IMG/VR virus record: IMGVR_UViG_3300042893_000241
Coordinates: 1-64,000 of that record
Length of the DNA stretch: 64,000 bases
Reading direction: 5' to 3' (one strand)
Source: a virus
This document shows positions 45,706-62,942 of this stretch, one piece after another. Position 1 is the stretch's first letter; each line of letters begins with the position of its first letter. Below the pieces are notes generated by a model, which worked only from the letters and a program-made list of their open reading frames with translations, did no database searches and was not told where the DNA came from. A program made the translations under genes and the position numbers.

Positions 45706-45943
45706 CATACAACTATTTAGCATCCGTAGATTCTTACATCACTCATTTCATCGTATAAACCAAACAGGTGATAGTTTTATTCTGTTTCGAGGGAAAACTA
45801 TCAAAAACCCAATGAGATTATGCGGCTAGCGCATATCCTGCAAAGGCAACGTTATCGTTTGCATTTACGTTTAGTGGCACTTTGCCAAGCAATCAGTCTC
45901 GAACCGCCCTATTACACGAAAATCGAATTCCAAGGTCACCCCC
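45668..45943 (-). ncRNA. ssrA: Two-piece tmRNA, coding RNA piece
   Basis: The predicted 5' end at 45943 reads GGGGGTG, which pairs with CACCTCC of the acceptor piece (seven positions, one G-U). Then TTGGAATTCGA matches the D-loop-like tmRNA consensus GGAUUCGA. The resume codon GCA at 45862 opens the tag ANDNVAFAGYALAA, followed by TAA at 45818, an unmistakable proteolysis tag with the hydrophobic ALAA end. Pseudoknot-like stems follow (GATAGTTTT/AAAACTATC) before the terminator. tmRNA with SmpB rescues stalled ribosomes and tags their products for proteases. The exact 3' end is estimated. Confidence 0.92.
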
Positions 45944-46066
45944 ATCAACAAGAAACTCATCTAGGCAAGTACCGCAGCAAAAATCATCTTCTATTATACG
46001 CGCTCTTAAATCTTCTAGGTTAGTATACTGAGAGTCACGTATGTCACGACAACTGCAAATTACCAT
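45893..46066 (-). CDS. Bfd-like [2Fe-2S] ferredoxin encoded inside the tmRNA spacer
   Basis: This 57-residue ORF from ATG 46066 starts MVICSCRDIRDSQYTNLEDL. It has an AAGAGGA ribosome binding site that begins directly after the CCA of the tmRNA acceptor piece. C4-x-C6 and C31-x-x-C34 match the four cluster ligands of bacterioferritin-associated ferredoxin (C4, C6, C38, C41 in E. coli) with a shorter middle. Codons 1-41 lie in the spacer between the two tmRNA pieces. Codon 42 begins exactly at the GGGGGTG 5' end of the coding piece, and the ORF stops inside it. Full tmRNA processing would therefore destroy this message. Bfd proteins release iron from ferritin or serve as electron or cluster carriers. 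Confidence 0.75.
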   Translation of the reverse strand: MVICSCRDIRDSQYTNLEDLRARIIEDDFCCGTCLDEFLVDGGDLGIRFSCNRAVRD

Positions 46067-46076
46067 AATTTCCTCT

Positions 46077-46140
46077 TGGTGGAGGTGCGGGGAGTCGAAC
46101 CCCGGTCTTTCCGCCTTTATTGTTGATTGTCAACAACTGA
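46077..46140 (-). ncRNA. ssrA: Two-piece tmRNA, acceptor RNA piece
   Basis: On the minus strand CGGGG-TTCGACT-CCCCG is a perfect T-arm (46104-46088), followed by CACCTCC, discriminator A and an encoded CCA at 46079-46077. There is no matching 5' acceptor strand or anticodon arm upstream, which excludes an ordinary tRNA. The partner strand GGGGGTG lies 134 bases downstream at 45943, the circularly permuted order found in alphaproteobacteria. A 7-bp hairpin (TTGTTGA/TCAACAA, 46136-46120) occurs near the predicted 5' end. Confidence 0.92.
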
Positions 46141-46145
46141 TAATC

Positions 46146-46176
46146 TATTTATACACTAGTTTGCTTTGGAAGTCAA
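46146..46176 (-). promoter_or_regulatory. tmRNA promoter: sigma70-type with overlapping late element
   Basis: The minus strand shows TTGACT, a 17-base spacer and TATAAA. The -10 also forms an exact TATAAATA late octamer (46153-46146). The locus could thus be transcribed by host RNA polymerase early and by the phage-modified enzyme late. The predicted start is near 46140. Confidence 0.75.
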
Positions 46177-46768: not shown

Positions 46769-47113
46769 CTATAGATTAAAATTGATACTCTCTCCGCAGC
46801 CGCAGCTACTAGAAGCAAGCGGTGCTTGTATTTCAATGACGCTACCAATAATATCAACTTTTTTATTAACGGTGCTACCTATAAGATATAGTTCCGACGG
46901 TCTATCCAGCCAGAACGTCCAATCATCATACTCTTGTGGAAAGTCATCTTCTACGAGTTCGTCAGCACTCTTTACCAAATCCCACTTGTAACTGAACCCG
47001 GCACATCCACCTCCTGCGAGAGATAGTCGAACACCTAGTGCGTTATTTGAAACTGAGACATTACGAAAATGCTCAAGTGCGGATTCCGTAAACTGTATGC
47101 GGTCTTTTATCAT
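46769..47113 (-). CDS. A-type Fe-S carrier protein (IscA/SufA/ErpA family)
   Basis: This 114-residue protein starts at ATG 47113 (MIKDRIQFTESALEHFRNVS). GGGCAGFSYKWDL gives C37, and SSSCGCGE gives C104 and C106. These are the three conserved cysteines of A-type carriers, which hold and deliver Fe-S clusters. Length and spacing are normal. A related carrier is frequent in marine T4-like phages. Here it may help to mature the eight radical SAM enzymes and the Bfd-like ferredoxin. The start lies 5 bases after the upstream stop and lacks a clear ribosome binding site. Confidence 0.85.
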   Translation of the reverse strand: MIKDRIQFTESALEHFRNVSVSNNALGVRLSLAGGGCAGFSYKWDLVKSADELVEDDFPQEYDDWTFWLDRPSELYLIGSTVNKKVDIIGSVIEIQAPLASSSCGCGESINFNL

Positions 47114-47117
47114 CAAA

Positions 47118-47786
47118 CTATTTATTACGACTCGCTTCGAATAAATCACGAGTTTCGATAAGTTTTTTGGCCCAGTTGTCGCGCTTTTCTACAAACACCT
47201 GAGGCTCATCGCCATCTACAGCAATCAAGATAACAAGAAAGGGAACAGGAATACCAGTTCGTTCTTCATACATGATTGCATATGCAGCGGTCTGCATAAA
47301 GTAGGAACTGATATATTCCTTCTTCTTGGGCCGATTAGAAGTCTTAAAGTCGATTACGGCGCGAATACCATTGTATTCTCCGATACAGTCAACGCGACCA
47401 GCCATACGCAGGAAGTCGCTGTATAATGCCAGCTCTTGGCAGTGAATGTTATCGATAGGTTCAAGAATTGACTTAAACTTAGTAAACATTTCCTTGTCGA
47501 GCAAGGACGCTCTCACGCTATCAAAATCGACTTCTTCATTCTTTAAATATGCTTCGGTAAGTGTGTGTATTTTAGTACCGCGAGTAGAAGCCTGCTTAGA
47601 AATGCGGTCGGCTTCTTCTTCACCAACGCGCTCACGCCACTTGTTGATGCCATCTTTATTCAGAACACCGAGAACAGTGGTAGCAGAGGGATATCCAACA
47701 CCCGAGGCATTGACATAAACTCTGCTACCATCTTCTCTTGTTTCATCTTGGGCGAAATCAGTATAATCATAGATCGTTTTAAACAT
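47118..47786 (-). CDS. PD-(D/E)XK family nuclease
   Basis: This 222-residue protein has TRGTKIHTLTEAYL near residue 70, a RecB/Cas4-type motif, and MAGRVDCIGEYNGIRAVIDFKTSNRPKK near 130-155. In the latter the D...DxK arrangement (GRVD, then IDFKTS) marks the nuclease site, and YFMQTAAYAIMYEERTG follows as the QxxxY motif. Such exonuclease-like proteins are common in marine T4-like phages and may act in recombination or host DNA degradation. It lies between PhoH and the Fe-S carrier. Confidence 0.8.
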   Translation of the reverse strand: MFKTIYDYTDFAQDETREDGSRVYVNASGVGYPSATTVLGVLNKDGINKWRERVGEEEADRISKQASTRGTKIHTLTEAYLKNEEVDFDSVRASLLDKEMFTKFKSILEPIDNIHCQELALYSDFLRMAGRVDCIGEYNGIRAVIDFKTSNRPKKKEYISSYFMQTAAYAIMYEERTGIPVPFLVILIAVDGDEPQVFVEKRDNWAKKLIETRDLFEASRNK

Positions 47787-50985: not shown

Positions 50986-51861
50986 CTATTTTGGTTTTAT
51001 CAAATAATCATATATTTCGGTAGCAAACATTTTGTGGGCTTCGATGCCAGCATGTCCATAAGCACATCTTTCACCCTTATATTTATACATTGAGCCAACA
51101 GGTACAAAATTCAATCTATCAAATGTATCTTTATAAATCGTTTTTAGACGTTTAATTAAATCAATGTCTGTTTTTGTTTTTAAGAATTTTAAATTAGAAT
51201 GCTGACTAGATGGATCATCAGGATAAGGAATGTAGGGATGCGTTTCTATAAAAATATGTGGTATATTTTCTTGGTGTAAAGCAGTTTGTATTGACCGTAA
51301 AATAATCATATTGTTCAGGGCCACTTGATATTCGTTATTAATTTGTATCAGTGCATCATATAAGGTCTCTAGTTTATTTAATGTATGTCTATGAGACATA
51401 ATAAAGTTGTGTAAATTACCTTCTTCATCTATGATCATATCTCTTACAGGAGATGTCGCTCCTATAAATACCACATCTCCATCTTTGTAATAACCATTTG
51501 CTATATCCGACAGTATATTAAACAATATCTTTTTTTGAGAAGTGCCTGGTTCAGCAAAGTTCACATATTCCGTGGATAACATATCACTAAGATGTTTTGC
51601 GTATGAATATTGATTGCACAATTTCACATATCGGTCATTAGCTGATTCCGAACACCTTGGATCTAACATGGCATAAACTTTACTGTATAGTTGTGCGTTC
51701 CAGTTGCTGCGCCCATATCTCATTTTCAAAGTATTGACTTCTTTGAGCGACATATCGAATATATCCGCATCTGCCAATTCGGACCCAGCAGTATTGGAAC
51801 AGCCATAAAAAATTGTTCTTTTTATGTTGCATTCTTCAATATTATGGTATCGGATCGACAC
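50986..51861 (-). CDS. SGNH/GDSL-like hydrolase 1
   Basis: This 291-residue protein has IKRTIFYGCSNTAGSELAD near residue 15, the GxSxTxG block with the likely nucleophile Ser. YVNFAEPGTSQKKIL near 100 fits the Gly block, DVVFIGATSP near 129 the Asn-like block, and RCAYGHAGIEAHKMFATEIYDYL at the end the His block. It resembles the second SGNH-like protein at 52968 in layout. Esterases or O-acyl transferase partners of sugar pathways use this fold. It overlaps the neighbouring radical SAM gene by 20 bases. Confidence 0.65.
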   Translation of the reverse strand: MSIRYHNIEECNIKRTIFYGCSNTAGSELADADIFDMSLKEVNTLKMRYGRSNWNAQLYSKVYAMLDPRCSESANDRYVKLCNQYSYAKHLSDMLSTEYVNFAEPGTSQKKILFNILSDIANGYYKDGDVVFIGATSPVRDMIIDEEGNLHNFIMSHRHTLNKLETLYDALIQINNEYQVALNNMIILRSIQTALHQENIPHIFIETHPYIPYPDDPSSQHSNLKFLKTKTDIDLIKRLKTIYKDTFDRLNFVPVGSMYKYKGERCAYGHAGIEAHKMFATEIYDYLIKPK

Positions 51862-52975
51862 TTAGCTCATTCCACAAGTTATAAAATTTTATGTCTTTTT
51901 TAAGAAATTTTGTTTCTAATTCTTCAATCCAAGAATCTAATTGTATCGTTTCATCTCTAACATTTGTAACTTCATTGTCGTCAACATGAGATAGAAGACT
52001 TTCTCTGATATTTACCAATTGAATGATATCAGAAGAAAAGTAGGATTCATATTTGTCGATGCATATATCTAACTGATCTATTGCTAATTTTTTTATTTCA
52101 GGCGTAGCAGCAAAAATATTAAGTGAACGAGGAGAAGTCAATAGCTGAAATGTAATACCGTCATAATAGTCGCTGTAGTAAACATAATCACAGAATTCCA
52201 CTAAACTTAAAGCACTGGGCAAACAATAGGTTGCATGAATAGTAAGTTTACTATCACTAAAATTTCTAATATATTTTACATTTTCCTCAAATGCATTCCA
52301 TTTTGCACCATGTCTAATATATTCGAATTTGTCCTTAATAGTTTCAAAGCTAACTGCCCACTTAACTTTTTTTCCTAGAGTTAATAGCTTTTTAGCAACG
52401 TCATTGTTTTTAACATCTACCGCCATATTAGATAGGACATAGTAAAACTTGTCAGGTAAAATATCAATTAAATCCAAATTTTGCTTCTGTAGTAGAGGCT
52501 CACCCCCTAGAAGTTGCACACTAAAAACGTCATCTGCATTCTGTTTTATAAACTCAAGCAATTGAGCATCGGTATCTTTCGAGTTCTTTTCAAAATTGTC
52601 TTGGAGTATAGATGCCCACTTAGAACTAAATTGTGAGTTACAGTAAATACAACTTAGGTTACATGTGTTGTCCCATCTTAGATCCAGGGATGTCAATTGA
52701 AAATCTGTTGGTTCAGAGAAGTTTTTAGGATTAGTAATCTTTCGTTGTGATATACTTCCTCCTTTTTCTGCCAAATCACAATAAGAACAATAACTTTCTG
52801 GTTGGCCAAGTAGAATATTTTCACGAATTTTATTAGCCTTTTTCCCTAGTAACATCTCAGAAGGATTGTCTTTTTTTATGTTACCCAAAGGAAAAGAGCC
52901 AGCACAACAGAACTTAATATCTCCGTTGGTGTTGAGAAATAATCCAGTAAAAGGATATTCACAGAATTTATTCAT
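51842..52975 (-). CDS. Radical SAM protein 1 (N-terminal auxiliary-cluster type)
   Basis: This 377-residue protein has the CxxxCxxC cluster motif at C105, C109 and C112 (TCNLSCIYC). It is preceded by an N-terminal Cys domain (C5, C23, C24, C63, C66; FCEYPFTGLFLNTNGDIKFCC and YCSYCDLAEKGG) that resembles a SPASM/twitch auxiliary-cluster site placed before the core. LLGGEPLL near 155 is the SAM-binding GGE motif. Chemistry is probably radical formation with 5'-deoxyadenosine; the substrate is unknown. It overlaps the SGNH genes on both sides, so it is coupled to them. Confidence 0.85.
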   Translation of the reverse strand: MNKFCEYPFTGLFLNTNGDIKFCCAGSFPLGNIKKDNPSEMLLGKKANKIRENILLGQPESYCSYCDLAEKGGSISQRKITNPKNFSEPTDFQLTSLDLRWDNTCNLSCIYCNSQFSSKWASILQDNFEKNSKDTDAQLLEFIKQNADDVFSVQLLGGEPLLQKQNLDLIDILPDKFYYVLSNMAVDVKNNDVAKKLLTLGKKVKWAVSFETIKDKFEYIRHGAKWNAFEENVKYIRNFSDSKLTIHATYCLPSALSLVEFCDYVYYSDYYDGITFQLLTSPRSLNIFAATPEIKKLAIDQLDICIDKYESYFSSDIIQLVNIRESLLSHVDDNEVTNVRDETIQLDSWIEELETKFLKKDIKFYNLWNELSVDPIP

Positions 52976-53837
52976 TAATCAAATACTTATATAGTTCTTC
53001 TGCCATCACTTGGTGTTCAGAAATTTTAGGATGACCGAAACCACAATATTTTGGATGAGGCTCTAATGCATTCCAATTTCTACCATATTCATAACTCTTA
53101 AAATAATAATCAAGTTTCATGATGGAGGGCAAATCTTTACTTTTTTCTGCTATACGATACATATTTGATTGATAGAAAGTCGGATCTGAAATCCCTTTGA
53201 AAATATTATTGTAGTTAGTGGTGACATGAAAACTTTTTACTCTACCATTTGTTCGATGGTAGAGATTATCAATATATTGAATTTGCCAGTAGGCATCCCA
53301 GCATATTTGATATGTGTTTCCCACGGTAGCTACATAATCTTTGTGAAATTTCGGCGAGGGCCAATCCGCATGATATGACAATAACGGCTTCTTCGTTATT
53401 CCATTCTCATTTAACCAAAACCATCTATTAGCACTTGTTAATCCAAATAGAACTAAGTCTTTATCTCCGATTTTCCCAGTGGCCAGGTCTTCCTCATAGC
53501 AGTATATTGAATACTCCATGCCTGCTCCACCAAGCCCTCTGTTTATCCAAGGAACGCCAAACTTATCTGCCAGCCAACGCGGCCATGCCACTTCTTTGGT
53601 ACGGCGTATCTGTTCGCCCCAATCCCATCTGCCGTTCTCATCGAATAAAGTTTTATCGGAACAATACTTCGGATTATAATATTTTGTATTCCACTCAGGA
53701 CAGTATAATCCGCCCAAGTCAATTTTTGTTTTATCAACTTCGTATTCCGTTAACGCATCAACAAAAACATGATCTAGCGTTTCATCACCGGCAGTCATAC
53801 TACAACCATAAGCAATGATTCTATCGAATTCAATCAT
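52968..53837 (-). CDS. SGNH/GDSL-like hydrolase 2
   Basis: This 289-residue protein starts MIEFDRIIAYGCSMTAGDETLDHVF with GCSMTAG as block I. WINRGLGGAGMEYSIY near 95, LVLFGLTSANRWFW near 125 and CGFGHPKISEHQVMAEELYKYL at the end are Gly, Asn-like and His blocks. It has the same layout as hydrolase 1, although the middle is diverged. The two paralogs flank a radical SAM gene. They may act as esterases or acyltransferases on the product. Catalysis is inferred from the motifs only. Confidence 0.65.
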   Translation of the reverse strand: MIEFDRIIAYGCSMTAGDETLDHVFVDALTEYEVDKTKIDLGGLYCPEWNTKYYNPKYCSDKTLFDENGRWDWGEQIRRTKEVAWPRWLADKFGVPWINRGLGGAGMEYSIYCYEEDLATGKIGDKDLVLFGLTSANRWFWLNENGITKKPLLSYHADWPSPKFHKDYVATVGNTYQICWDAYWQIQYIDNLYHRTNGRVKSFHVTTNYNNIFKGISDPTFYQSNMYRIAEKSKDLPSIMKLDYYFKSYEYGRNWNALEPHPKYCGFGHPKISEHQVMAEELYKYLINE

Positions 53838-53937
53838 AAATGAACGGGTCCTGCTTTCGGATCTCAGCCAGTCTCTTTTTATACTTTTGCTTTAGAACAT
53901 ATGAATTATATAATCTTTGAATCCATTTAAACAACAT
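53830..53937 (-). CDS. 35-residue basic microprotein within the radical SAM operon
   Basis: The ORF starts at ATG 53937 (MLFKWIQRLYNSYVLKQKYK) and ends with KRLAEIRKQDPFIYD. It overlaps the upstream radical SAM gene by 11 bases and the downstream SGNH gene by 8 bases, so this otherwise empty 89-base gap is coding. It is Lys/Arg/Tyr-rich with an amphipathic helix and a DPFIY terminus that recalls small proteins near modification clusters in marine phages. It could be a peptide substrate, a partner of the radical SAM enzymes or an unrelated conserved protein. Confidence 0.6.
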   Translation of the reverse strand: MLFKWIQRLYNSYVLKQKYKKRLAEIRKQDPFIYD

Positions 53938-55099
53938 AAATTTCGTCCCTATTATTATTTTTACCACATGCTTCTGAGCAAACATAAAGTTTACCGTCAG
54001 AGCAGCTTTTCTTCTTCCATGTATCTTTCAGATTTTGATAGTAAAGACCATCGACAATTGTTTGAAAGTTGCTAGTATTTAGATTGATGGAGGAAGTTCT
54101 TGTTTGAGAATAATGCCATTTTTTAAATTGATATTCATCAATTCTATGATAGCTATTATTAATCGCACTATCAAACCAACAACATGGTAGTAAATCGCCA
54201 CTAGAATTGACATAAAATGTTTTCTTGTTATTAGAATTGCATTTAGGTTCGATTTCAGTATGCTCTAGTTCACTGGTATATTCTTTTGGACTTCTGAATA
54301 TCTTTTTAAAATCTTCATGTTCGTCTTCTATGCTCATAAAGATATCTCTTACATCAACAGCCGTTTTATCCATTCGCTCTACATCATAGTTTCTAAAAAC
54401 GATGTTTCTTTCGTTGTCATATTGAAAAGACACTCTATATTTTTCAGATGGTGCCTGAATTGCATATTCAAACTTACCGGTAGCATCATGAACTGGAATA
54501 CTACTAACACTCTCAAATCCTAGCGGTCGTTTCGCAATAAATTTTGCTCCAACACTCTCGGCCAAACTTTTAGCGTAATTAACCTGATGTTCATTGTGGG
54601 CAAATACTAAAAATTCCCAGACAATATTCGCACCAGTGGTAGTAGCGGCAATAAAATTATTAAATGCCGTATCCCATTTGACATTTCTACGATATATATG
54701 GTTGGTGTCTTCAAGCCCATCTATACTAAAGACGATATCTCCCTTGTATAATTCTGGATTGAATAACGCGCCCATTTTTTGCCAGAAATCTTCATTTCTA
54801 GTGCCACCGTTTGTGTGAAGTCTTATCGCTGATTTAGGCGACACTTCTCGAATATAGGAAACAATTTCGTGTAGATCCCTACACAATGAGGGATCACCAG
54901 AACTTCCGCATAAAATCCACACTTCAACTTTTTCACATACTTCCGGCGTGAACCAAGTTTTAAATTTTTCTAGACTAATCTGAGATAATTCAATCGTGCT
55001 TTTAGTTTTCCCACCCATCCAGTTACGTGTGCATCCGGGGCATGCCGCATTACAGTTATTGGTGAGTTCGATGTGTAACTCGTAAATATTAGGAATCAT
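53927..55099 (-). CDS. Radical SAM/SPASM-type protein 2
   Basis: This 390-residue protein has the core motif at C16, C20 and C23 (NNCNAACPGC), near the N-terminus. WILCGSSGDP near 65 sits where the GGEP motif is expected. A C-terminal auxiliary-cluster region (CNSNNKKTFYVNSSGDLLPCCWF and CSDGKLYVCSEACGK) is SPASM-like. FSIDGLEDTNHIYRRN near 125 and FAHNEHQVNYAKSLAESVGAKF near 170 are shared with protein 5 (57533-58783), its closest relative here. SPASM proteins often modify peptides or sugars. Confidence 0.88.
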   Translation of the reverse strand: MIPNIYELHIELTNNCNAACPGCTRNWMGGKTKSTIELSQISLEKFKTWFTPEVCEKVEVWILCGSSGDPSLCRDLHEIVSYIREVSPKSAIRLHTNGGTRNEDFWQKMGALFNPELYKGDIVFSIDGLEDTNHIYRRNVKWDTAFNNFIAATTTGANIVWEFLVFAHNEHQVNYAKSLAESVGAKFIAKRPLGFESVSSIPVHDATGKFEYAIQAPSEKYRVSFQYDNERNIVFRNYDVERMDKTAVDVRDIFMSIEDEHEDFKKIFRSPKEYTSELEHTEIEPKCNSNNKKTFYVNSSGDLLPCCWFDSAINNSYHRIDEYQFKKWHYSQTRTSSINLNTSNFQTIVDGLYYQNLKDTWKKKSCSDGKLYVCSEACGKNNNRDEIYVV

Positions 55100-56340
55100 C
55101 TATATGCTTCCAATTTTTTTGCCCAGTCTGGAAAGTATTCAGAAAACTTTTGATTTTTATACTTATCATGTTTTTCTGAAATAACATAGAAATTGCTGAA
55201 ATGTCTTTCCGAAGGCCTCTCTGACATTAAATGCGTAGTCACATTTCTTAGCGTATCAAAATTCCATTCATTAGCCTCTTTATATTCAGAAATATAAGAT
55301 GTGATTTTTTGGATTAGCTCTAGCTTAATTTCTCTGGGCAAATTGGTTATCTTATAATGATCTGGCTTGTATAACATGTTATACCATATACCAGAATTCA
55401 CTCCATATCTATTACGTATGAATCTATCAAACTCTGTGATGTGGTCAATATTAGCTATGCTTATAGTATAACAAAAACTAATCTTTATTGACGGATGTTT
55501 CCGACTTAACTCATGAAACTTGTCAATATTTGCAAGAACCACATCCCATTTTGCAGGATGTCTCATGTATTCAAATACCTGTTCTATTCCATCGATACTT
55601 AGTGCAATATCAGAGGTTTGAAACTGAGTGAAAACATCAATCTGTTTTTGACTAGGAAAAATTGTGCCATTTGTATTACAATGCAGGTACTGGGACTTAC
55701 TTACCCCAGCTTCAATACACTTATGTAACATTTTCCATGGCTTAGTAATTAATAACGGTTCACCGCCATAAAAGTCAATTCTTTTAGATTGTAGAATCCA
55801 TTGTTCAAATTCTTCCCACAATAATGGATTGTCATCCGAGTAACTTATTCTCGCGGGCTCGAAGCGGGCAAGAAATTTTCTTTTATCTGCATATTCTTTT
55901 AAATATACATCATATTCTTCTGTTTGCCAAGCACTACTGCTATTTGAGTTGCACGTTCTACACCTTAAATTGCATGTATTACCAAACTTCATGTCAATAT
56001 AGAACGGCGTTTCTGGGCCCATAACATCAGGATAATCCTGTTCATATTTTTCCCACAAATGTTGCTCTCTCAGGCGCTTACTAATTTTTCCTCCAGCATT
56101 TTCTTCTTCCCAACAAGCAATACAATTGGGATGCTGAATGCCAGCATCTAATGCTTCCAAAATTTCTCGTCTGTGATTGCTTTTCCAAAACTGACTAGGC
56201 TTATGCGTATTGAACCGCATCTCCTTGCCATCATCGTCTAATAATACGTCTCTTGCCATGCAGCATGTTTTAGCATTGCCCATAGTCTCGGTTGCAATTC
56301 CATATTTGGCAGTCAGACAAGTTAATTTTTTGGTAGACAT
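55096..56340 (-). CDS. Radical SAM protein 3 (N-terminal twitch-like type)
   Basis: This 414-residue protein has C123, C127 and C130 (TCNLRCRTC) as the core cluster. An N-terminal Cys set (C26, C27, C73, C76; CCMARDV and CIACWEEENAGG) forms a probable auxiliary site. DFYGGEPLLITKPWKML near 190 is the GGEP motif, and ALSIDGIEQVFEYMRHPAKWDVVL near 250 is a conserved block also seen in protein 4. It overlaps proteins 2 and 4 by 4 and 19 bases. Confidence 0.87.
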   Translation of the reverse strand: MSTKKLTCLTAKYGIATETMGNAKTCCMARDVLLDDDGKEMRFNTHKPSQFWKSNHRREILEALDAGIQHPNCIACWEEENAGGKISKRLREQHLWEKYEQDYPDVMGPETPFYIDMKFGNTCNLRCRTCNSNSSSAWQTEEYDVYLKEYADKRKFLARFEPARISYSDDNPLLWEEFEQWILQSKRIDFYGGEPLLITKPWKMLHKCIEAGVSKSQYLHCNTNGTIFPSQKQIDVFTQFQTSDIALSIDGIEQVFEYMRHPAKWDVVLANIDKFHELSRKHPSIKISFCYTISIANIDHITEFDRFIRNRYGVNSGIWYNMLYKPDHYKITNLPREIKLELIQKITSYISEYKEANEWNFDTLRNVTTHLMSERPSERHFSNFYVISEKHDKYKNQKFSEYFPDWAKKLEAYR

Positions 56341-57533
56341 TTTTCAGCCCAAGGATAGGTTTCAAACACATTCTGTTTTCTGATCTTATCAAGTAACTGT
56401 TGTTTCATAACAAAATTATTTTGAATAATAGGATTATGTAGATTATCGGTTCTGGATTCCAGGTATTTGATGATAAATTCTACTGCTTGTTTATTTAAAG
56501 CATTAGTATTTTTCTGAACCTCAAAATATTCCCGCAATTCGTTCAATCTAAGATTATAATTATCTTCGGGCATAACATCAGGCTGCAAAAAATCTGGACT
56601 ATTAACAGGAATAACGGAACAGTGAATTCCAACCGTATCAAAGAAACGAATCAAGTCTGCCATTGTATCCAAAGATAAGTTTTGTAATGTTGTGCTTATG
56701 GTAGCATGAATGTTTTGATGTTCTTGCATAATGGTTTTGTAAGTCAATAAGTTCTTTTCGATTTTTTTCCACCTACCAGGAAATCTAATATATTCAAACG
56801 TTGACTTATAACCATCAATACTAAGGCCGAGATGAACTTCTCTAAACTGTTTCCAGTAGTCGATAAATTCATACGGGTTGTTCATTCCGTTGGTATTATA
56901 GTGTAGCGCAATGTTTTTTGCCGCACCAGTCTCGCATAAAAATTGTAGTAGCTTAAGGTTTTCATCAATGATTAGCGGTTCACCGCCTATCAAATAAATT
57001 TGTTTGATAGTATGAATATGTTGTGACAATACCTCATTGATATCTACGGCATCAATCCACTTTGTATCCGACCAACTAGACTGATAATATTGTTTTGCTT
57101 CCGGGTGTTCATCTACTTCCTTACGAATCAGAGAACTACTGAACGGCCCACACATTCTGCATTTAAGATTGCACTTGGCATCCAAATCAAATTCAACTTT
57201 TACAATACCAATAGGCTCTGGACTTTTTTCAGCCACAATCCTATCATATTCTTTACGAAAGACTGAATTCGCATAATCTCTAAAACTCTTATTACCAGAG
57301 TCTTCGATATTCCAGCATCGTGAGCAAAGTTCTGGCTTATTCCCCTTTAACATTTCATCTCGCAGATACGACATGGTTTTTGTTTTCAGTAATGTATTCA
57401 CATCATAGTTTTCTTTGTCTTTGATGTTTTCTTGAACTTGTTTTGAGCCAATCGCATTGCAACAAGGCCTAAATTCCCCGTGTGAGCCAATGCTCAAATT
57501 CATCCAGGGATATACGCAAATAGTATCTGACAT
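56322..57533 (-). CDS. Radical SAM protein 4 (N-terminal twitch-like type)
   Basis: This 403-residue protein has C121, C125 and C128 (KCNLKCRMC) as the core. The N-terminus ICVYPWMNLSIGSHGEFRPCCNA and CSRCWNIEDSG (C6, C24, C25, C70, C73) is SPASM-like but lies before the core. YLIGGEPLIIDENLKLL near 180 and LSIDGYKSTFEYIRFPGRWKKI near 235 follow. It is closest to protein 3. The stop and next start share bases (19-base overlap). Confidence 0.87.
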   Translation of the reverse strand: MSDTICVYPWMNLSIGSHGEFRPCCNAIGSKQVQENIKDKENYDVNTLLKTKTMSYLRDEMLKGNKPELCSRCWNIEDSGNKSFRDYANSVFRKEYDRIVAEKSPEPIGIVKVEFDLDAKCNLKCRMCGPFSSSLIRKEVDEHPEAKQYYQSSWSDTKWIDAVDINEVLSQHIHTIKQIYLIGGEPLIIDENLKLLQFLCETGAAKNIALHYNTNGMNNPYEFIDYWKQFREVHLGLSIDGYKSTFEYIRFPGRWKKIEKNLLTYKTIMQEHQNIHATISTTLQNLSLDTMADLIRFFDTVGIHCSVIPVNSPDFLQPDVMPEDNYNLRLNELREYFEVQKNTNALNKQAVEFIIKYLESRTDNLHNPIIQNNFVMKQQLLDKIRKQNVFETYPWAEKCLPKN

Positions 57534-58783
57534 TATTGTACCTCGTTTACGTGATTTCTATTATTACCCAATTCACCCTGATCCAGTTTATTGAATTCTA
57601 AACCACAACAAGAACTGCATTGATGACTGCGCATCGAACTACCACGCTCGAAACTCATCGGTAGATATCTTTGAAAATATGCAGTATTAATAATTTCTTC
57701 TAAAGTATGCTTATGAAGATCCAGTGAGTCCATACCACCATTAAGTTCGATCATTTTAAGCGAGTTATCATTAGGATTTGACCATTGCGCACCAAATCTC
57801 CATGGTTCTCCGCCTAGAAAACAACAAGGGAAAACATGACCTGTGGCAGACAAGAACACTTCGTTGTTTTTCTGGTGTTCATTAATCTTTGCTCGACACA
57901 TAATACCCAAAGAGTTGTGTTTAATCTTAATTGTTTCGTTGGAGTCGGGATCATGATTTACTAAAAACTCTTCTGTGTTTTCAGGCATCAATCTACCAAA
58001 TTCTTCATTTGTGATATATTGTGGAATAAGATTCTTTATTGCTTTTGCAAAAACAACATCATTTTGATGCTTTAGTCTCTCTTCTTCCGGTTGCTTGATG
58101 TAGTATGAGGAACCATCTGGATTTCTAACTCTGTAGTACCCTCTTCCGGCTGCATCATATCCTTGCCATCTAGTTGTTCTTTTAATATTGAAAGTTCTAA
58201 AATTCAATTCTTTTGCGATGGCCTTGGCTTCGTCAATTTGATGCTCATTAAAATCAAACGCGATAAAGTCCCATTTAGCTATGCCGCCTGCGGCAGTAAA
58301 TGCTTTCATATTAGCATGAATTTTAGCAAAATTGGTATTTCTTCTGTATAGGTGATTTGTGTCCCATAAGCCATCAACAGAAAAAGTTACACCATCATCT
58401 CGTTGATTTTCTCCGTTGAGAATTTGACCTAGTTCTTTCCACCAACCTTCCGATCTAGCACTAGCATTTGTGTGCATTACTAATGAGAGATATGGGTTAT
58501 TTTCTCGCAAATACTTGAATATTGGCAAAGTATCTTTAGCAGTAATAGGATCTCCATAATTCCCACATGCATACACCCGTCTAAGTTGTGAAACAAACGG
58601 AATAGGAAACCATTCTTTGAATTGTTCTAGAGAAATATCTGTTAGATTTAGAAGAGGATTGATTTCTTTACCCTGATTGATATAACGAGGACACATAGGA
58701 CATCCTGCATTACATTTATTAGATAATTCAATGTGCATCGCAGTAATATTGCGCCACGATTTGTATAGTGGTTCAACTTGCAT
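57533..58783 (-). CDS. Radical SAM/SPASM-type protein 5
   Basis: This 416-residue protein has C24, C28 and C31 (NKCNAGCPMC) as the core motif, with GNYGDPITAKDTL near 72. FSVDGLWDTNHLYRRNTNF near 130 and FDFNEHQIDEAKAIAKELNF near 172 match protein 2. The C-terminal Cys groups (IMCRAKI, GHVFPCCFLGG, HQCSSCCGLEF) fit a SPASM domain. It is the paralog of protein 2 separated by proteins 3 and 4, so the operon contains alternating pairs. It shares one base with the next start. Confidence 0.88.
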   Translation of the reverse strand: MQVEPLYKSWRNITAMHIELSNKCNAGCPMCPRYINQGKEINPLLNLTDISLEQFKEWFPIPFVSQLRRVYACGNYGDPITAKDTLPIFKYLRENNPYLSLVMHTNASARSEGWWKELGQILNGENQRDDGVTFSVDGLWDTNHLYRRNTNFAKIHANMKAFTAAGGIAKWDFIAFDFNEHQIDEAKAIAKELNFRTFNIKRTTRWQGYDAAGRGYYRVRNPDGSSYYIKQPEEERLKHQNDVVFAKAIKNLIPQYITNEEFGRLMPENTEEFLVNHDPDSNETIKIKHNSLGIMCRAKINEHQKNNEVFLSATGHVFPCCFLGGEPWRFGAQWSNPNDNSLKMIELNGGMDSLDLHKHTLEEIINTAYFQRYLPMSFERGSSMRSHQCSSCCGLEFNKLDQGELGNNRNHVNEVQ

Positions 58784-60179
58784 TTTCAGTTAATTCCTTG
58801 CACATGTGGTAAAAATCCTTGTATTCAGGAAAAGTTTCTATTAGATTAAGCCCAGGAGAACGTTTGTCATATTCGGAAAAGAACTTATAGAAGTCCTTGC
58901 GACCGGTTTCGATTAATTCAGGAGTAATCCTAGGTCCACCAGTCACAAAGTAATTTCTTACTCGCTTTAGCTTTTCCCATTCATGTTCATTGAATCCAAA
59001 CTCCATTCCGTATGGAGTAATACGCTGCTTGATGAAATCAAGGTCCTCATCGATATATGATACCCATTCTGGCGGAAGAAGATTAATCATCCAATGTGGT
59101 GGTTCTTTTAGATACGGCGTATCAAATCCAATACGCTCTTTACCCCACTTATCGCGAAGTTCTAATATCTTTTCTAAGAATGGACGGAAAGAAGCAACAC
59201 ACAGAATGTTGTAGGTACACATAAAACTAATGTTTGCTTTTGGAACAATTCTTAGATATGTTTCTACGTTCTGCAAGAAAAGATCCTGATCCAGACCTCT
59301 GCGCATATATTCTGCCTTCGGTCCCCACGATTCTAGACTTGTGTAAAGTTTGAAATCCTTAATTTTCTTATTTTCGATCATCGACTTTACTGTTTCAGCA
59401 AACTTTGTCACTCGATTATTCGAAACGCCAAGATTACTATTCAAATTCAATTCAAGATGCTGAGTACCATCACCCTCTTCAATCAATTTAAACAACTTCA
59501 TTGTGTTTGAGTTGATAAGTGCTTCGCCGCCCGTCAGGCGAAGAACACGGAGATCCTTCTTTAGGTCAGGCCACCACTTCCAAAATGCCTCGATGTAGGG
59601 ATTGTATTCGTCATCTCTATACACCTTACTAGTTTCTAGATATTCAATCCCATACTGATTATAACTAATGTCATAATTACCATGCTTGCGGATTTCATCT
59701 TCCCATAGTGAAGATGCTTGTGGACAGCAATAACCACACTTAAAATTACAACCTGCACCAAAACTAACTTCAAGGAAGTAAGGATTGTAGTCTGCATCCC
59801 ATGCCGTATTCTTAATCATTTCAGTTTCAGCGGCGGCATCTATCCAATGACTTGCATTATGAAACATTCTATCGCTAAAATTTTCGCCAGGAAGATTTTC
59901 TACGTTCCAGCAGTAGTAACATTCTTCTGGACGTCCGCCCTCAAGCATAATTTTACGCTGTTCTTTCTTCCACTTCGTATTATGAAGTGCAGAAGGATTT
60001 TCAGCAATTTCTTCTAAAGGAATATGACGAGGGCGAGGATGATAACAACTGTGATTGTCGCCCATATGAAGATACAGAGTCTCGTGGCGCCATTTTTGCA
60101 GACAAAATCCATTACCCACTGTATTCAGTGTATCTCGGACTTTTTTTACCTTATTAATATATTCTAAATTATCACTCAT
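58773..60179 (-). CDS. Radical SAM protein 6 (SCYHPR-type)
   Basis: This 468-residue protein has C144, C148 and C151 (GCNFKCGYC) as the core. The N-terminal module FCLQKWRHETLYLHMGDNHSCYHPRPRHIPLEEI...CYYCWNVE (C26, C45, C87, C90) is shared with proteins 7 and 8 only. LRLTGGEALINSNTMKL near 212 is the GGE motif. AEYMRRGLDQDLF near 290 and a final RSPGLNLIETFPEYKDF are also shared. It overlaps protein 5 by 11 bases. The substrate is unknown. Confidence 0.88.
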   Translation of the reverse strand: MSDNLEYINKVKKVRDTLNTVGNGFCLQKWRHETLYLHMGDNHSCYHPRPRHIPLEEIAENPSALHNTKWKKEQRKIMLEGGRPEECYYCWNVENLPGENFSDRMFHNASHWIDAAAETEMIKNTAWDADYNPYFLEVSFGAGCNFKCGYCCPQASSLWEDEIRKHGNYDISYNQYGIEYLETSKVYRDDEYNPYIEAFWKWWPDLKKDLRVLRLTGGEALINSNTMKLFKLIEEGDGTQHLELNLNSNLGVSNNRVTKFAETVKSMIENKKIKDFKLYTSLESWGPKAEYMRRGLDQDLFLQNVETYLRIVPKANISFMCTYNILCVASFRPFLEKILELRDKWGKERIGFDTPYLKEPPHWMINLLPPEWVSYIDEDLDFIKQRITPYGMEFGFNEHEWEKLKRVRNYFVTGGPRITPELIETGRKDFYKFFSEYDKRSPGLNLIETFPEYKDFYHMCKELTENAS

Positions 60180-61608
60180 TAATCAGGCCTTCGCATTCTT
60201 CAATAAATTCTATCATTTCTGGAAATGTTTCTTTGAGGTTAGTCTTACGCCGCTTATCATGTTCTCTAAAATGCATAGTGAAGTTTTTCTTATGAAGAAT
60301 TTCTTCATCTTTAGGCATTGGTTCAACTGCCCAGTCATAAAGGCGCTTTACTTTGTCAATTTCATAATCTTTGAAACCCTTAAATCGATTTGATACGGTC
60401 TCTTTGTTTTGCTCCATAAATTCGATACTATTTAGCAAAGGCTGCAACATCTCTTTAGATGCCAACTTTAGACTCAGCCACTTAGGATCAGTAAGCATAG
60501 GAGTATCAAACCAAACCAACTGTCTATCCGTATTATACTCTTGACGCAATCTTAAAATATTTTGAAAGTATGTCATCCAATTCGGTAAACATAGAATGTT
60601 ACATGTCACAATAAAGGTTAGAGAATGCTTTTCACCTTCACTCAAAAATTGTGTGATGTTTTTATAAAGAACATCAAAATCCATACCTGTCCGAATATAC
60701 TCTGCCTGTTTTCCCCAACTATCGAGACTACAGAAGAGCATGAAGTGATCGATTGCATCCTGATCTGTGATTTCTTTCAAGTCATCCATAAACTTTTGCC
60801 ACTGTCCTTTTGGAGGGCAACAATTGCTAGTAATACTTAGCGTCAAATCTGGTTTTGGATTTTTCTTGACATGGTCAAAAATCTTAAAAGTATTCTTATC
60901 CATCAAAGGCTCGCCGCCTGTCATACGAAATGTCTTTAACTTGTCATATACAGTAGGAAACCACTCCCAGAATGCAACAAGATATGGATTTACAGGAGAA
61001 TTATCCGGCACCCAACCCTGTTCTTTCATCCAACCATCGTCATTATGAGTTCTATCGAAAAGCCGATATGGACCATGCTCTTTAATTTCTTTATGCCACT
61101 CTGTAGACAAATGAGGGGAACAATATGTGCATTTTAAATTGCAGGCCTGATTAAAGTTGACTTCCAAATATTTGGGGGCAGGATTTCCTTCAAACCCAAC
61201 TGCTAACGCTTCATCGATAATACCCGGCGAGTTAACATCAAAACTGCGATACGCTCTATCGCTCATATTACCAGTATCTTCGATATCCCAACAGAAAGAG
61301 CATTCCGACGGTCTTTCGCCTAGTAACATCTTCTTTCGCTGTTCTTTCTTGTATTTTGTGTTATGTAAAGCACCTGGATCTGCCGCAAGTTCCTCTAAAG
61401 GAACCTTATGGGTTCTAGGATGATAGCAACTATGAGTTCTGCCAGTAGGAATATGAATGCTGACATTAAACCACTTTGCAAGACAAAAGGAAGGACTTAC
61501 TTTGTTTAAGCCTTCCAGCATATCCTTAGTGTTGTCAAAGTAAACACTCTTGTATGCTCCATCTAGATCGGCAGTTACTTCATCACCGCGTTGATTTTCA
61601 TCGTTCAT
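60172..61608 (-). CDS. Radical SAM protein 7 (SCYHPR-type)
   Basis: This 478-residue protein has C156, C160 and C163 (ACNLKCTYC) as the core. The N-terminal module FCLAKWFNVSIHIPTGRTHSCYHPRTHKVPLEEL...CSFCWDIEDTG (C42, C61, C103, C106) precedes it, and FRMTGGEPLMDKNTFKI near 220 is the GGEP motif. AEYIRTGMDFDVLYKN and RRKTNLKETFPEMIEF match proteins 6 and 8. It overlaps protein 6 by 8 bases and protein 8 by 4 bases (ATGA). Confidence 0.88.
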   Translation of the reverse strand: MNDENQRGDEVTADLDGAYKSVYFDNTKDMLEGLNKVSPSFCLAKWFNVSIHIPTGRTHSCYHPRTHKVPLEELAADPGALHNTKYKKEQRKKMLLGERPSECSFCWDIEDTGNMSDRAYRSFDVNSPGIIDEALAVGFEGNPAPKYLEVNFNQACNLKCTYCSPHLSTEWHKEIKEHGPYRLFDRTHNDDGWMKEQGWVPDNSPVNPYLVAFWEWFPTVYDKLKTFRMTGGEPLMDKNTFKIFDHVKKNPKPDLTLSITSNCCPPKGQWQKFMDDLKEITDQDAIDHFMLFCSLDSWGKQAEYIRTGMDFDVLYKNITQFLSEGEKHSLTFIVTCNILCLPNWMTYFQNILRLRQEYNTDRQLVWFDTPMLTDPKWLSLKLASKEMLQPLLNSIEFMEQNKETVSNRFKGFKDYEIDKVKRLYDWAVEPMPKDEEILHKKNFTMHFREHDKRRKTNLKETFPEMIEFIEECEGLINE

Positions 61609-62942
61609 AGGGTATTACACCATTCTAAAAATTCTTTGAATTCTGGAAATACTTCCACTAGGTTGCTTTTGCTTCGTCTATCGTATTCTGGGAAAAACTT
61701 AGCAAAATCTCGTCTGGCATTTAGACGATACGTATCATCAATTGCATGTTCATCGTTATAAAAGTAATCTCGAATACGTAACATCTTTTGACGTTCTATA
61801 TCAGTAAACCATTCAGACTCCTGAATGAATTTCAAGTCAGAATCGATATACTTACCGAAATCTTTAGTTAGAATATTGATTGTCCAGTGTGGCGGTTCTT
61901 TAAGATGTGGAATATCAACAATAATTCTATCTTTGCCCCATTTTTTTCTAAGTTCCACAATATAATCTAAGAAGTCTCTGAAATACGGTACTACAAGATT
62001 ATTATACGTTACCATAAAGGACATGTAAGCAGTTGGGACCAATTCTAGAACGGTGTCAACATTCTTCTTAAACAACTCGTAGTCCAGACCACGCCGAATG
62101 TATTCAGCTTGTTTACCGGTGCATTCAATACTGGTAAAACAACGAAAATTCTTAATCTTATTGTTATCTATAAGTTCTCGAACAGTATTACTTACTTCAA
62201 CAACTTTTCGATTGGTTACACCGAGATTGGTATTAATCTGCAACATAAGGTCAGAATTACCCTCGTCACGCAACGTCTCTAACAGACGATATGTATTGGT
62301 GGTCATCAGAGGTTCACCACCAGTAATACGGAAAATCTTCAACTCTTTTTTTAGTTCTGGCCACCATTTCCAAAATGCTTCCACATAGGGATTATATTCT
62401 TTCTCAGAATATATTTTCTTTCCTCTAGTTCCATATGGACTGTCTGTTAGATCATAGTCACCAAATTCTTCAAGTTCTTGTTCCCACATAGAAGAAAAAG
62501 ATGCAGTGCAATATCCACACTTGAAATTACACGCATTACTAAAACTAATTTCCATGTTGTATGGATTTACGTTCTGATCCCATGGAGTATTGCGTAGAAG
62601 TTCGGTTTCTTCATTAAGATCAAAAATAGGATTAATTTTATCAATATTCTTCAATACGCGGTCGCTGACCTTACCAATCTTTTCAATATTCCAACAATAT
62701 GAACAACCAGGCGGTTTACCACCAGAAAGCATATACTTTCTAGTGAATTTCTCATAAAGTGTGTTGTGAAGAGCGGCTGGATCTTCCTCAATTTCTTCCA
62801 GCGGAATAATTCTAGGACTAGGATGATGGCAGCTATGCTTGTCACCCGAATGCAGATACAGCGCAAGCCATCTCCACTTCTGTGGACAAAATCCCTCGCC
62901 TACAGAATTTAGTGTGGTTAAAGCATCATCTATTTCACTCAT
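61605..62942 (-). CDS. Radical SAM protein 8 (SCYHPR-type)
   Basis: This 445-residue protein has C138, C142 and C145 (ACNFKCGYC) as the core. The N-terminal module is FCPQKWRWLALYLHSGDKHSCHHPSPRIIPLEEI...CSYCWNIEKIG (C19, C38, C80, C83), and FRITGGEPLMTTNTYRL near 200 is the GGEP motif. It is closer to protein 6 than to protein 7. It is the first radical SAM gene after the promoter, and its start overlaps the upstream gene by 4 bases. Confidence 0.88.
   Translation of the reverse strand: MSEIDDALTTLNSVGEGFCPQKWRWLALYLHSGDKHSCHHPSPRIIPLEEIEEDPAALHNTLYEKFTRKYMLSGGKPPGCSYCWNIEKIGKVSDRVLKNIDKINPIFDLNEETELLRNTPWDQNVNPYNMEISFSNACNFKCGYCTASFSSMWEQELEEFGDYDLTDSPYGTRGKKIYSEKEYNPYVEAFWKWWPELKKELKIFRITGGEPLMTTNTYRLLETLRDEGNSDLMLQINTNLGVTNRKVVEVSNTVRELIDNNKIKNFRCFTSIECTGKQAEYIRRGLDYELFKKNVDTVLELVPTAYMSFMVTYNNLVVPYFRDFLDYIVELRKKWGKDRIIVDIPHLKEPPHWTINILTKDFGKYIDSDLKFIQESEWFTDIERQKMLRIRDYFYNDEHAIDDTYRLNARRDFAKFFPEYDRRSKSNLVEVFPEFKEFLEWCNTL

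Follow-up and report, generated by a model that had tools for sequence, protein, structure and literature searches.

Permuted tmRNAs with a non-coding intervening sequence are described in Alphaproteobacteria, Betaproteobacteria, Cyanobacteria and aquatic phages (RF04321; available portions of PMC11915505 and PMC9004378). In the accessible part of the latter source, 50 of 53 two-piece phage tmRNAs come from marine or aquatic phages (PMC9004378). The precursors are probably processed by RNase P and tRNase Z (available text of PMC3985003). Regarding the content of the intervening sequences, the accessible part of PMC11915505 mentions one intact tRNA gene and one repetitive element, and no protein gene. 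The same text reports homing-endonuclease genes in group I introns of tmRNA genes, in 36 of 883 intron forms. Two further cases concern translation: the E. coli arfA transcript is a non-stop message repressed by trans-translation (PMC10107115, in part), and a predicted 23-codon ORF in S. meliloti contains the tag, with a start codon that is irrelevant to tag translation (PMC10117765, in part).

Here we analyze the first 64,000 nucleotides (the window) of a 68.2-kb virus record, IMGVR_UViG_3300042893_000241. The tmRNA of the window has the acceptor piece, spacer and coding piece with tag of the permuted tmRNAs in RF04321, but its spacer is a protein gene. As in the homing-endonuclease introns, a protein gene lies within a segment that is removed from the tmRNA precursor. 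There, however, the segment is a self-splicing intron in the T-loop carrying a mobile endonuclease, while here it is the natural gap of the permuted form and the proteins are very small. Like arfA, the window ORF would become non-stop on RNA processing, so that tmRNA could limit it, but the stop codon that it would lose is part of the tmRNA. Permuted tmRNA, genes in excised introns and non-stop regulation are each already known. A recurrent slot for protein genes within a tmRNA spacer, where the ribosome site falls into the predicted closing stem, corresponds to no known kind that we found, and our literature search, with most subscription papers outside it, returned no description of a protein gene in this position.

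The permuted tmRNA of the window

The window encodes a permuted (two-piece) tmRNA on its minus strand (ARAGORN c45727-46172, tag ANDNVAFAGYALAA). The RNA scores 95.8 bits against the Rfam model RF04321 (tmRNA_permuted, cut-off 47) and covers model positions 1-213 of 213, with its pieces in permuted order. Read 5' to 3' on the minus strand, the locus consists of TATAAATA, the acceptor piece up to the CCA, the spacer, and the coding piece with the tag, which starts at 45943 with the sequence GGGGGTGA. The features, all on the minus strand, are as follows.

46146 to 46153: TATAAATA, T4-type late-promoter-like element just upstream of the tmRNA (from its conserved offset; putative promoter)
46077 to 46138: tmRNA acceptor piece, CCA end at 46077 (Rfam RF04321 alignment and sequence)
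45944 to 46076: tmRNA spacer (intervening sequence), 133 nt, occupied by the nested gene (sequence, Rfam)
46071 to 46076: ribosome binding site AGAGGA, beginning at the first base after the CCA (sequence)
46067 to 46074: 5' strand of the closing stem, AGGAAATT, including most of the ribosome site (predicted duplex)
45893 to 46066: nested ORF, 57 codons and stop, CxC-x24-CxxC with one extra Cys before the CxxC (ORF call, census, dN/dS)
45944 to 46066: 41-codon ORF core inside the spacer, its first 38 codons homologous to a free-standing 50-codon gene (homology, dN/dS)
45950 to 45957: 3' strand of the closing stem, AGTTTCTT, inside the last core codons (predicted duplex)
45893 to 45943: coding-piece stretch that supplies the last 16 codons of the ORF and its stop TGA (sequence)
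45818 to 45862: tag reading frame ANDNVAFAGYALAA and stop, within the coding piece (ARAGORN, Rfam)

The spacer opens with AGAGGAAATTATG; the ribosome site comes first and then the ATG at 46066. The original prediction placed the ribosome site immediately after the CCA and the end of the ORF core exactly at the first base of the coding piece. Both placements agree with the sequence: AGAGGA occupies 46076-46071 next to the CCA end at 46077, and the first 41 codons end at 45944, filling the remainder of the spacer exactly. The spacer had also been called unusually long, at 134 bases. It is indeed long for its tmRNA clade, where the other spacers measure 45-122 nt, but its length is 133 nt.

The promoter-like element TATAAATA lies 77 nt before the CCA end in 27 of 43 distinct upstream sequences of the window tmRNA clade. 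Among other permuted tmRNAs, 46 of 97 upstream sequences contain TATAAT, 29 of them at the offset of TATAAATA or one base less. TATAAAT is a T4-like late element (PMC9004378, in part). A sigma-70 scan of the region gave 3 matches against 2.0 expected, none at the TATAAATA site. Since the promoter-like element recurs at one offset, transcription of the precursor probably starts near the acceptor piece, which would make the nested ORF the first message.

The source of the window is apparently a T4-like phage, judging by eye from its gene content. TATAAATA occurs ten times on the minus strand of the window (46153, 51087, 43500, 37408, 26870, 21607, 19606, 13102, 4952 and 4553) and twice on the plus strand. 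Also on the minus strand, a 126-codon ORF two genes upstream of the nested cysteine-rich ORF (46769-47149) contains GGGCAGFSY...SCGCGESINF, a motif that we take to resemble that of A-type iron-sulfur carriers (IscA/HesB). Eight long minus-strand ORFs at 51842-62942 carry CxxxCxxC-type motifs that by eye resemble radical SAM enzymes, a surprising number for a phage.

A reading frame under selection in the spacer

The frame of the nested ORF passes the end of the spacer as GGG GGT GAC, enters the coding piece and reaches a TGA after 16 codons. A protein-based scan found relatives in the same spacer position at 17 further loci (L002-L018). To avoid ascertainment by the protein, we carried out a DNA-only census queried with coding-piece DNA alone. 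It found 93 stretches, 80 of them listed; 91 hits were examined and 89 spacers (41 distinct) could be delimited. The nested ORF is present in 15 of the 89 (6 distinct) and intact in all 15. The remaining 74 begin and end in complementary runs and look hairpin-like by eye. The locus L392, cut by the end of its stretch and left out of the 89, also reads the ORF. L218 shares the neighbours and tmRNA subtype of the ORF-bearing L010, yet its spacer is a 65-nt hairpin-like sequence.

Between spacer copies with more than 3 base differences, dN/dS is 0.06-0.20 (seven pairs; Fisher p 0.013 to 1.7e-5), while three pairs with only 2-3 differences are uninformative. In the pair L012-L015, for example, 10.5 changes are synonymous and 3.5 non-synonymous (p 1.7e-5). 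The ORF is more than a chance frame because all 15 census copies are intact, synonymous changes dominate and free-standing homologues exist. As judged by these comparisons, the nested ORF is shown to be a genuine phage gene under protein-level selection. The original prediction of a protein gene nested in the tmRNA spacer is thereby borne out. It had named stops or frameshifts in homologous copies, or a lack of protein-level selection, as findings that would count against it; none of the 15 copies carries a stop or frameshift, and the substitution ratios indicate purifying selection. In this respect the spacer of the window departs from the usual non-coding spacers of permuted tmRNAs.

The coding spacers described here come from metagenomic contigs. 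Using tblastn, we compared five proteins of four families (the core of the window family, termed G, its free-standing homologue, and families C, D and I described below) with named phages: four had no match, and the fifth gave two records with one weak match (E 0.7). Among five named phages, the three spacers that could be delimited (Marzo, Rb1 and RpAliso) are hairpin-like by eye. A ribosome site and ATG following CACCTCCACCA occurred in 0 stretches of 84,980 species genomes, a pattern that does not show absence in bacteria because it covers one exact acceptor end.

Homologues upstream of permuted tmRNAs

A profile scan with the nested protein yielded 24 loci, comprising 17 spacer copies and seven free-standing genes (L248-L254). 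The free-standing gene has 50 codons, is 63-66% identical to the nested ORF over the first 38 residues and immediately precedes a permuted tmRNA with a spacer of its own. Its C-terminal residues are not derived from tmRNA. Fifteen comparisons of free-standing with spacer copies gave dN values of 0.21-0.25, with saturated synonymous sites in 14 and a dS of 2.9 in the remaining one. Because the search relied on conserved peptide stretches, the copies it found are biased towards conserved residues, though not towards synonymous changes. The L248 gene stops immediately ahead of the tmRNA's TATAAATA, so that a move into the spacer would place it behind the promoter-like element.

Four spacer families have homologues immediately upstream of a permuted tmRNA: G in L248-L254, F in L313 and L317, A in L374, and K in L330 and L376. 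The latter two loci hold family B in their own spacers. Comparison of the spacer and upstream copies indicates purifying selection for A, F and K. The upstream A, K and F frames end some 25-40 bases inside the tmRNA start called by ARAGORN. The ATG of the upstream A (L374) and K (L330) frames lies 6-7 bases after a TATAAT, itself preceded by TTGACA or TTGACT. Because of this short distance, the two frames may open the transcript that includes the tmRNA, as messages with almost no leader. No clear start codon was found for the upstream F homologues.

Other small ORFs in permuted tmRNA spacers

By sequence comparison, 13 and tentatively 14 different small ORF families fill the spacers of permuted phage tmRNAs. 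The families and their loci are listed below, with protein length where given.

A: 22 aa; L112, L163, L126 and others
B: 26 aa; L330
C: 41 aa; L258, L262, L294
D: 47 aa; L342, L177, L256; relatives L086, L158, L125, L152, L194
E: L150, L169
F: L265
G: window
H: L111
I: L176
J (tentative): L290
K: L088
L: L093
M: L089, L323
N: L145

Prevalence was estimated from a sample collected by the 5' end of the coding piece alone, which gave, among the matches listed (at least 120), 122 loci, 102 of them permuted according to ARAGORN. An ORF with a strong ribosome site fills 5 of the 71 distinct spacers of at least 40 nt (A three times, C and H), while dinucleotide shuffles of the same spacers gave a mean of 0.54 and a maximum of 3 filled spacers in 500. 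This count leaves out L176, L258, L259, L260, L262 and L267, which derive from scans selecting the ribosome site; with up to six such loci included, it becomes 8 of 74 (shuffle mean 0.47, maximum 3 of 500). The strict test misses three more spacer ORFs of the sample: B and J, which have weak ribosome sites, and D, where two ORFs are present and the conserved one starts further in. Families A, B, C, D, H, J and M (L323, whose spacer is not delimited there) are represented in the unselected sample. E, F, I, K, L and N rest on scans selecting the bases after the CCA, which were left out of the prevalence estimate.

Among the loci collected here, no spacer family found another by tblastn at E<=0.05. 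Ten spacer-slot proteins were scanned and had neither a family in common nor a match to an endonuclease family. Purifying selection was found within families A, C, D and G. The synonymous excess is not significant for E (L150/L169) or for M (L089/L323), whose 3 differences are all non-synonymous. For B, H, I, J, L and N, the loci collected here include no diverged relative for such a comparison.

Some features of individual spacers were seen by eye. A, B, C, D, E and K resemble single membrane helices. The family D spacers (L177, L256 and L342; 188-192 nt) contain two overlapping ORFs, the first near the CCA and the second conserved and membrane-like; between L342 and L177, the first ORFs share 44% identity over 25 residues. 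The spacer ORF MKNRYTALCPTCFIRFQWIKDNGLSKHKCLS (L290, L293, L305, L322, L325) contains CPTC...HKC, resembling a small zinc ribbon, and has no family match at the cut-off. The non-coding spacers of L062, L390 and L446 hold apparent tRNA remnants inside the closing hairpin, consisting of GGTTCGAATCC followed by an acceptor-like stem.

The spacer boundary and the predicted closing stem

TGAT ends 50 of 66 non-coding spacers. A TGA at the boundary is therefore commonly present, and its use as a stop needs only the right frame. It is the stop in nine families (A, B, C, D, I, K, L, M and N), in D as the stop of the second of the two ORFs. In the other five (E, F, G, H and J) the frame reads GAT GGG GGT GAC or similar and ends at a stop within the coding piece. 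None of the 14 families uses the third frame across the boundary. If processing cuts at 45943/45944, the message of the window ORF would be left without a stop. Since the stop coincides with the boundary in nine of 14 families, a non-stop step would concern at most five.

The two ends of each spacer are predicted to pair. For 16 coding representatives of 12 families, the duplex formed by a spacer's own ends has a mean predicted energy of -8.4 kcal/mol, compared with -6.1 kcal/mol for exchanged ends (0 of 300 permutations). The values for 75 representatives without a strict ORF, a set that counts B and J with their weak ribosome sites as non-coding, are -13.8 and -6.0 kcal/mol (0 of 300 permutations). 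In coding spacers, the ribosome site falls into the 5' strand of the predicted stem, while the last codons form the 3' strand. The predicted closing stem of the coding phages corresponds to the hairpin occupying this slot in relatives without an ORF.

We calculated the accessibility of the ribosome site in 18 coding precursors from 13 families. Its mean unpaired probability is 0.05 in the full precursor and 0.15 in the excised spacer, compared with 0.52 in the nascent RNA, where the end of the spacer is missing, and 0.44 when the last bases of the spacer are shuffled. The full precursor differs from the nascent and from the shuffled RNA with paired Wilcoxon p 3.8e-6 each, a value that overstates independence because there are related precursors among the 18. 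The window itself is the weakest case for control by the stem (full 0.26, excised 0.41, nascent 0.64, shuffled 0.32). Its sister L007 has values of 0.26 (full), 0.39 (shuffled) and 0.31 (nascent).

We consider it fairly likely that the ORF is a genuine gene in the coding slot of a permuted tmRNA precursor and that its translation competes with maturation. Alternatively, the ORF could be translated while its place is passive, a tolerant stretch in a well-expressed phage transcript, with a stem and boundary stop that regulate nothing. Most spacers are variable and non-coding, which points to loosely constrained content; the stem is present also where there is no ORF, and no family is common to the ten proteins scanned. 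Folding of the tmRNA may be the sole function of the stem, and the ribosome site may lie inside it since both need the ends of the spacer. However, coding spacers keep their end pairing while also encoding protein, nine families place their stops at the boundary, and in 18 of 18 cases the nascent RNA is predicted to expose the ribosome site more than the full precursor does. We therefore regard a passive place as unlikely, though deserving of serious attention.

The nature of the nested protein

According to the original prediction, the nested protein is Bfd-like and the synthesis of a ferredoxin is coupled to tmRNA maturation. A Bfd-type [2Fe-2S] ferredoxin coupled in this way would perhaps be linked to iron release from bacterioferritin. 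The resemblance to Bfd (PF04324) consists of a CxC near the N-terminus and a later CGxC: the start M-x-[VI]-C-x-C and the C-G-x-C are as in E. coli Bfd. In a single hhalign comparison with Bfd, both cysteine pairs aligned together with an E-value of 0.0052, but the probability was 6.9%. The two pairs are 24 residues apart in the window protein, compared with 31-32 in the two Bfd sequences examined, and there is an extra Cys before the CxxC. Shuffled sequences with fixed cysteines reached the Bfd similarity score in 111, 167, 127 and 469 of 2000 cases, indicating a similarity near chance beyond the cysteines. Pfam Fer2_BFD was matched neither by the window protein (E<=10) nor by the free-standing homologue (E<=1), nor by any of 8 phage records at E<=10. 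Two AlphaFold2 models had mean pLDDT values of 53.6 and 53.5, too poor for fold comparison.

Membership in the Bfd family, examined with Pfam, NCBIfam, PHROGs, PDB sequences, profile comparison, shuffles and the two structure predictions, was not established, and we find a Bfd-type ferredoxin quite improbable. The proposed coupling of ferredoxin synthesis to maturation is too specific, since Bfd is unsupported and other phages carry unrelated proteins in this slot. The upstream copies of the gene, the wider set of spacer ORFs, the placement of the ribosome site in the predicted stem and the stop codon that maturation would remove all go beyond the original prediction.

No Pfam, PHROGs or NCBIfam model was matched by the window protein at its cut-off. 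Below the cut-offs, weak Pfam matches were TRASH_HVO_1752_C (E 0.015-0.13; 12.8-15.8 bits, cut-off 27) and DAN (E 0.075-0.13), and NCBIfam gave one weak match (E 0.046-0.071). A PDB profile search returned one unrelated match (E 0.47). Going by the cysteines only, our guess is that the nested gene probably encodes a small protein that binds metal or an Fe-S cluster.

Discussion

We infer the following order of events for a spacer whose translation competes with maturation. Transcription would start at or near the acceptor piece, from the putative promoter. As long as the 3' end of the spacer is still unmade, the ribosome site would be open and the ORF could be translated. Once the end of the spacer and the coding piece are made, the predicted stem would close and hide the ribosome site. 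The tRNA-like ends would then be cut, presumably by RNase P at the coding piece and by a 3' processing enzyme at the CCA, yielding the mature two-piece tmRNA and destroying the message. In the nine families with the stop at the boundary, the excised spacer would for that reason still be a complete mini-message. In the window family, where the stop lies inside the coding piece, maturation would produce a non-stop message with a complete last codon, naturally suited as a substrate for tagging by tmRNA. The build-up of tmRNA would then limit the window-family protein, much as E. coli arfA is limited.

It is also conceivable that the excised spacer rather than the precursor is the working message, with cutting releasing a mini-mRNA. 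The ribosome site lies only a few bases from the CCA and the stop is at the boundary in A, B, C, I, K, L, M and N, and in D through its second ORF. However, the predicted accessibility of the ribosome site is still low in the excised spacer (mean 0.15 over the 18), five families including that of the window have no stop in the spacer, and so short an RNA would probably be short-lived. We judge a role as the main message very unlikely. That the frame is an accident of conserved RNA from which no protein is made is hardly credible: its last 16 codons do lie in conserved tmRNA and a frame of some 40 codons may stay open by chance, but the excess of synonymous changes, the free-standing homologues without tmRNA overlap and the 15 of 15 intact copies already contradict it.

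Dual-function RNAs with an ORF include SgrS/SgrT and RNAIII/hld. As in these, a single RNA here would combine an RNA function with a small protein. In the permuted precursor, however, one use should preclude the other, given that the message is cut out on maturation.

A broader reading, which we put forward tentatively, is that the permuted tmRNAs of aquatic phages provide a general slot. Genes would move between the upstream position and the spacer, a scaffold stem that hides the ribosome site would make translation and maturation mutually exclusive, and feedback by tagging would be built in. If the slot reading is true, the stem would also be a scaffold that brings the two halves of the tmRNA together, and in families without a stop in the spacer, maturation would yield a tmRNA for which the message itself becomes a substrate.

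Apart from its tag, tmRNA is regarded as a non-coding RNA. If the spacer is a translated slot in many phages, small phage proteins are hidden inside RNA genes, where annotation is unlikely to call them. The excised gap could carry cargo, which would give a testable angle on the reason for permutation and on the use that phages make of tmRNA. Such a slot would, moreover, be a direct example of competition between a message and a functional RNA for a single transcript, possibly with a self-tagging loop.
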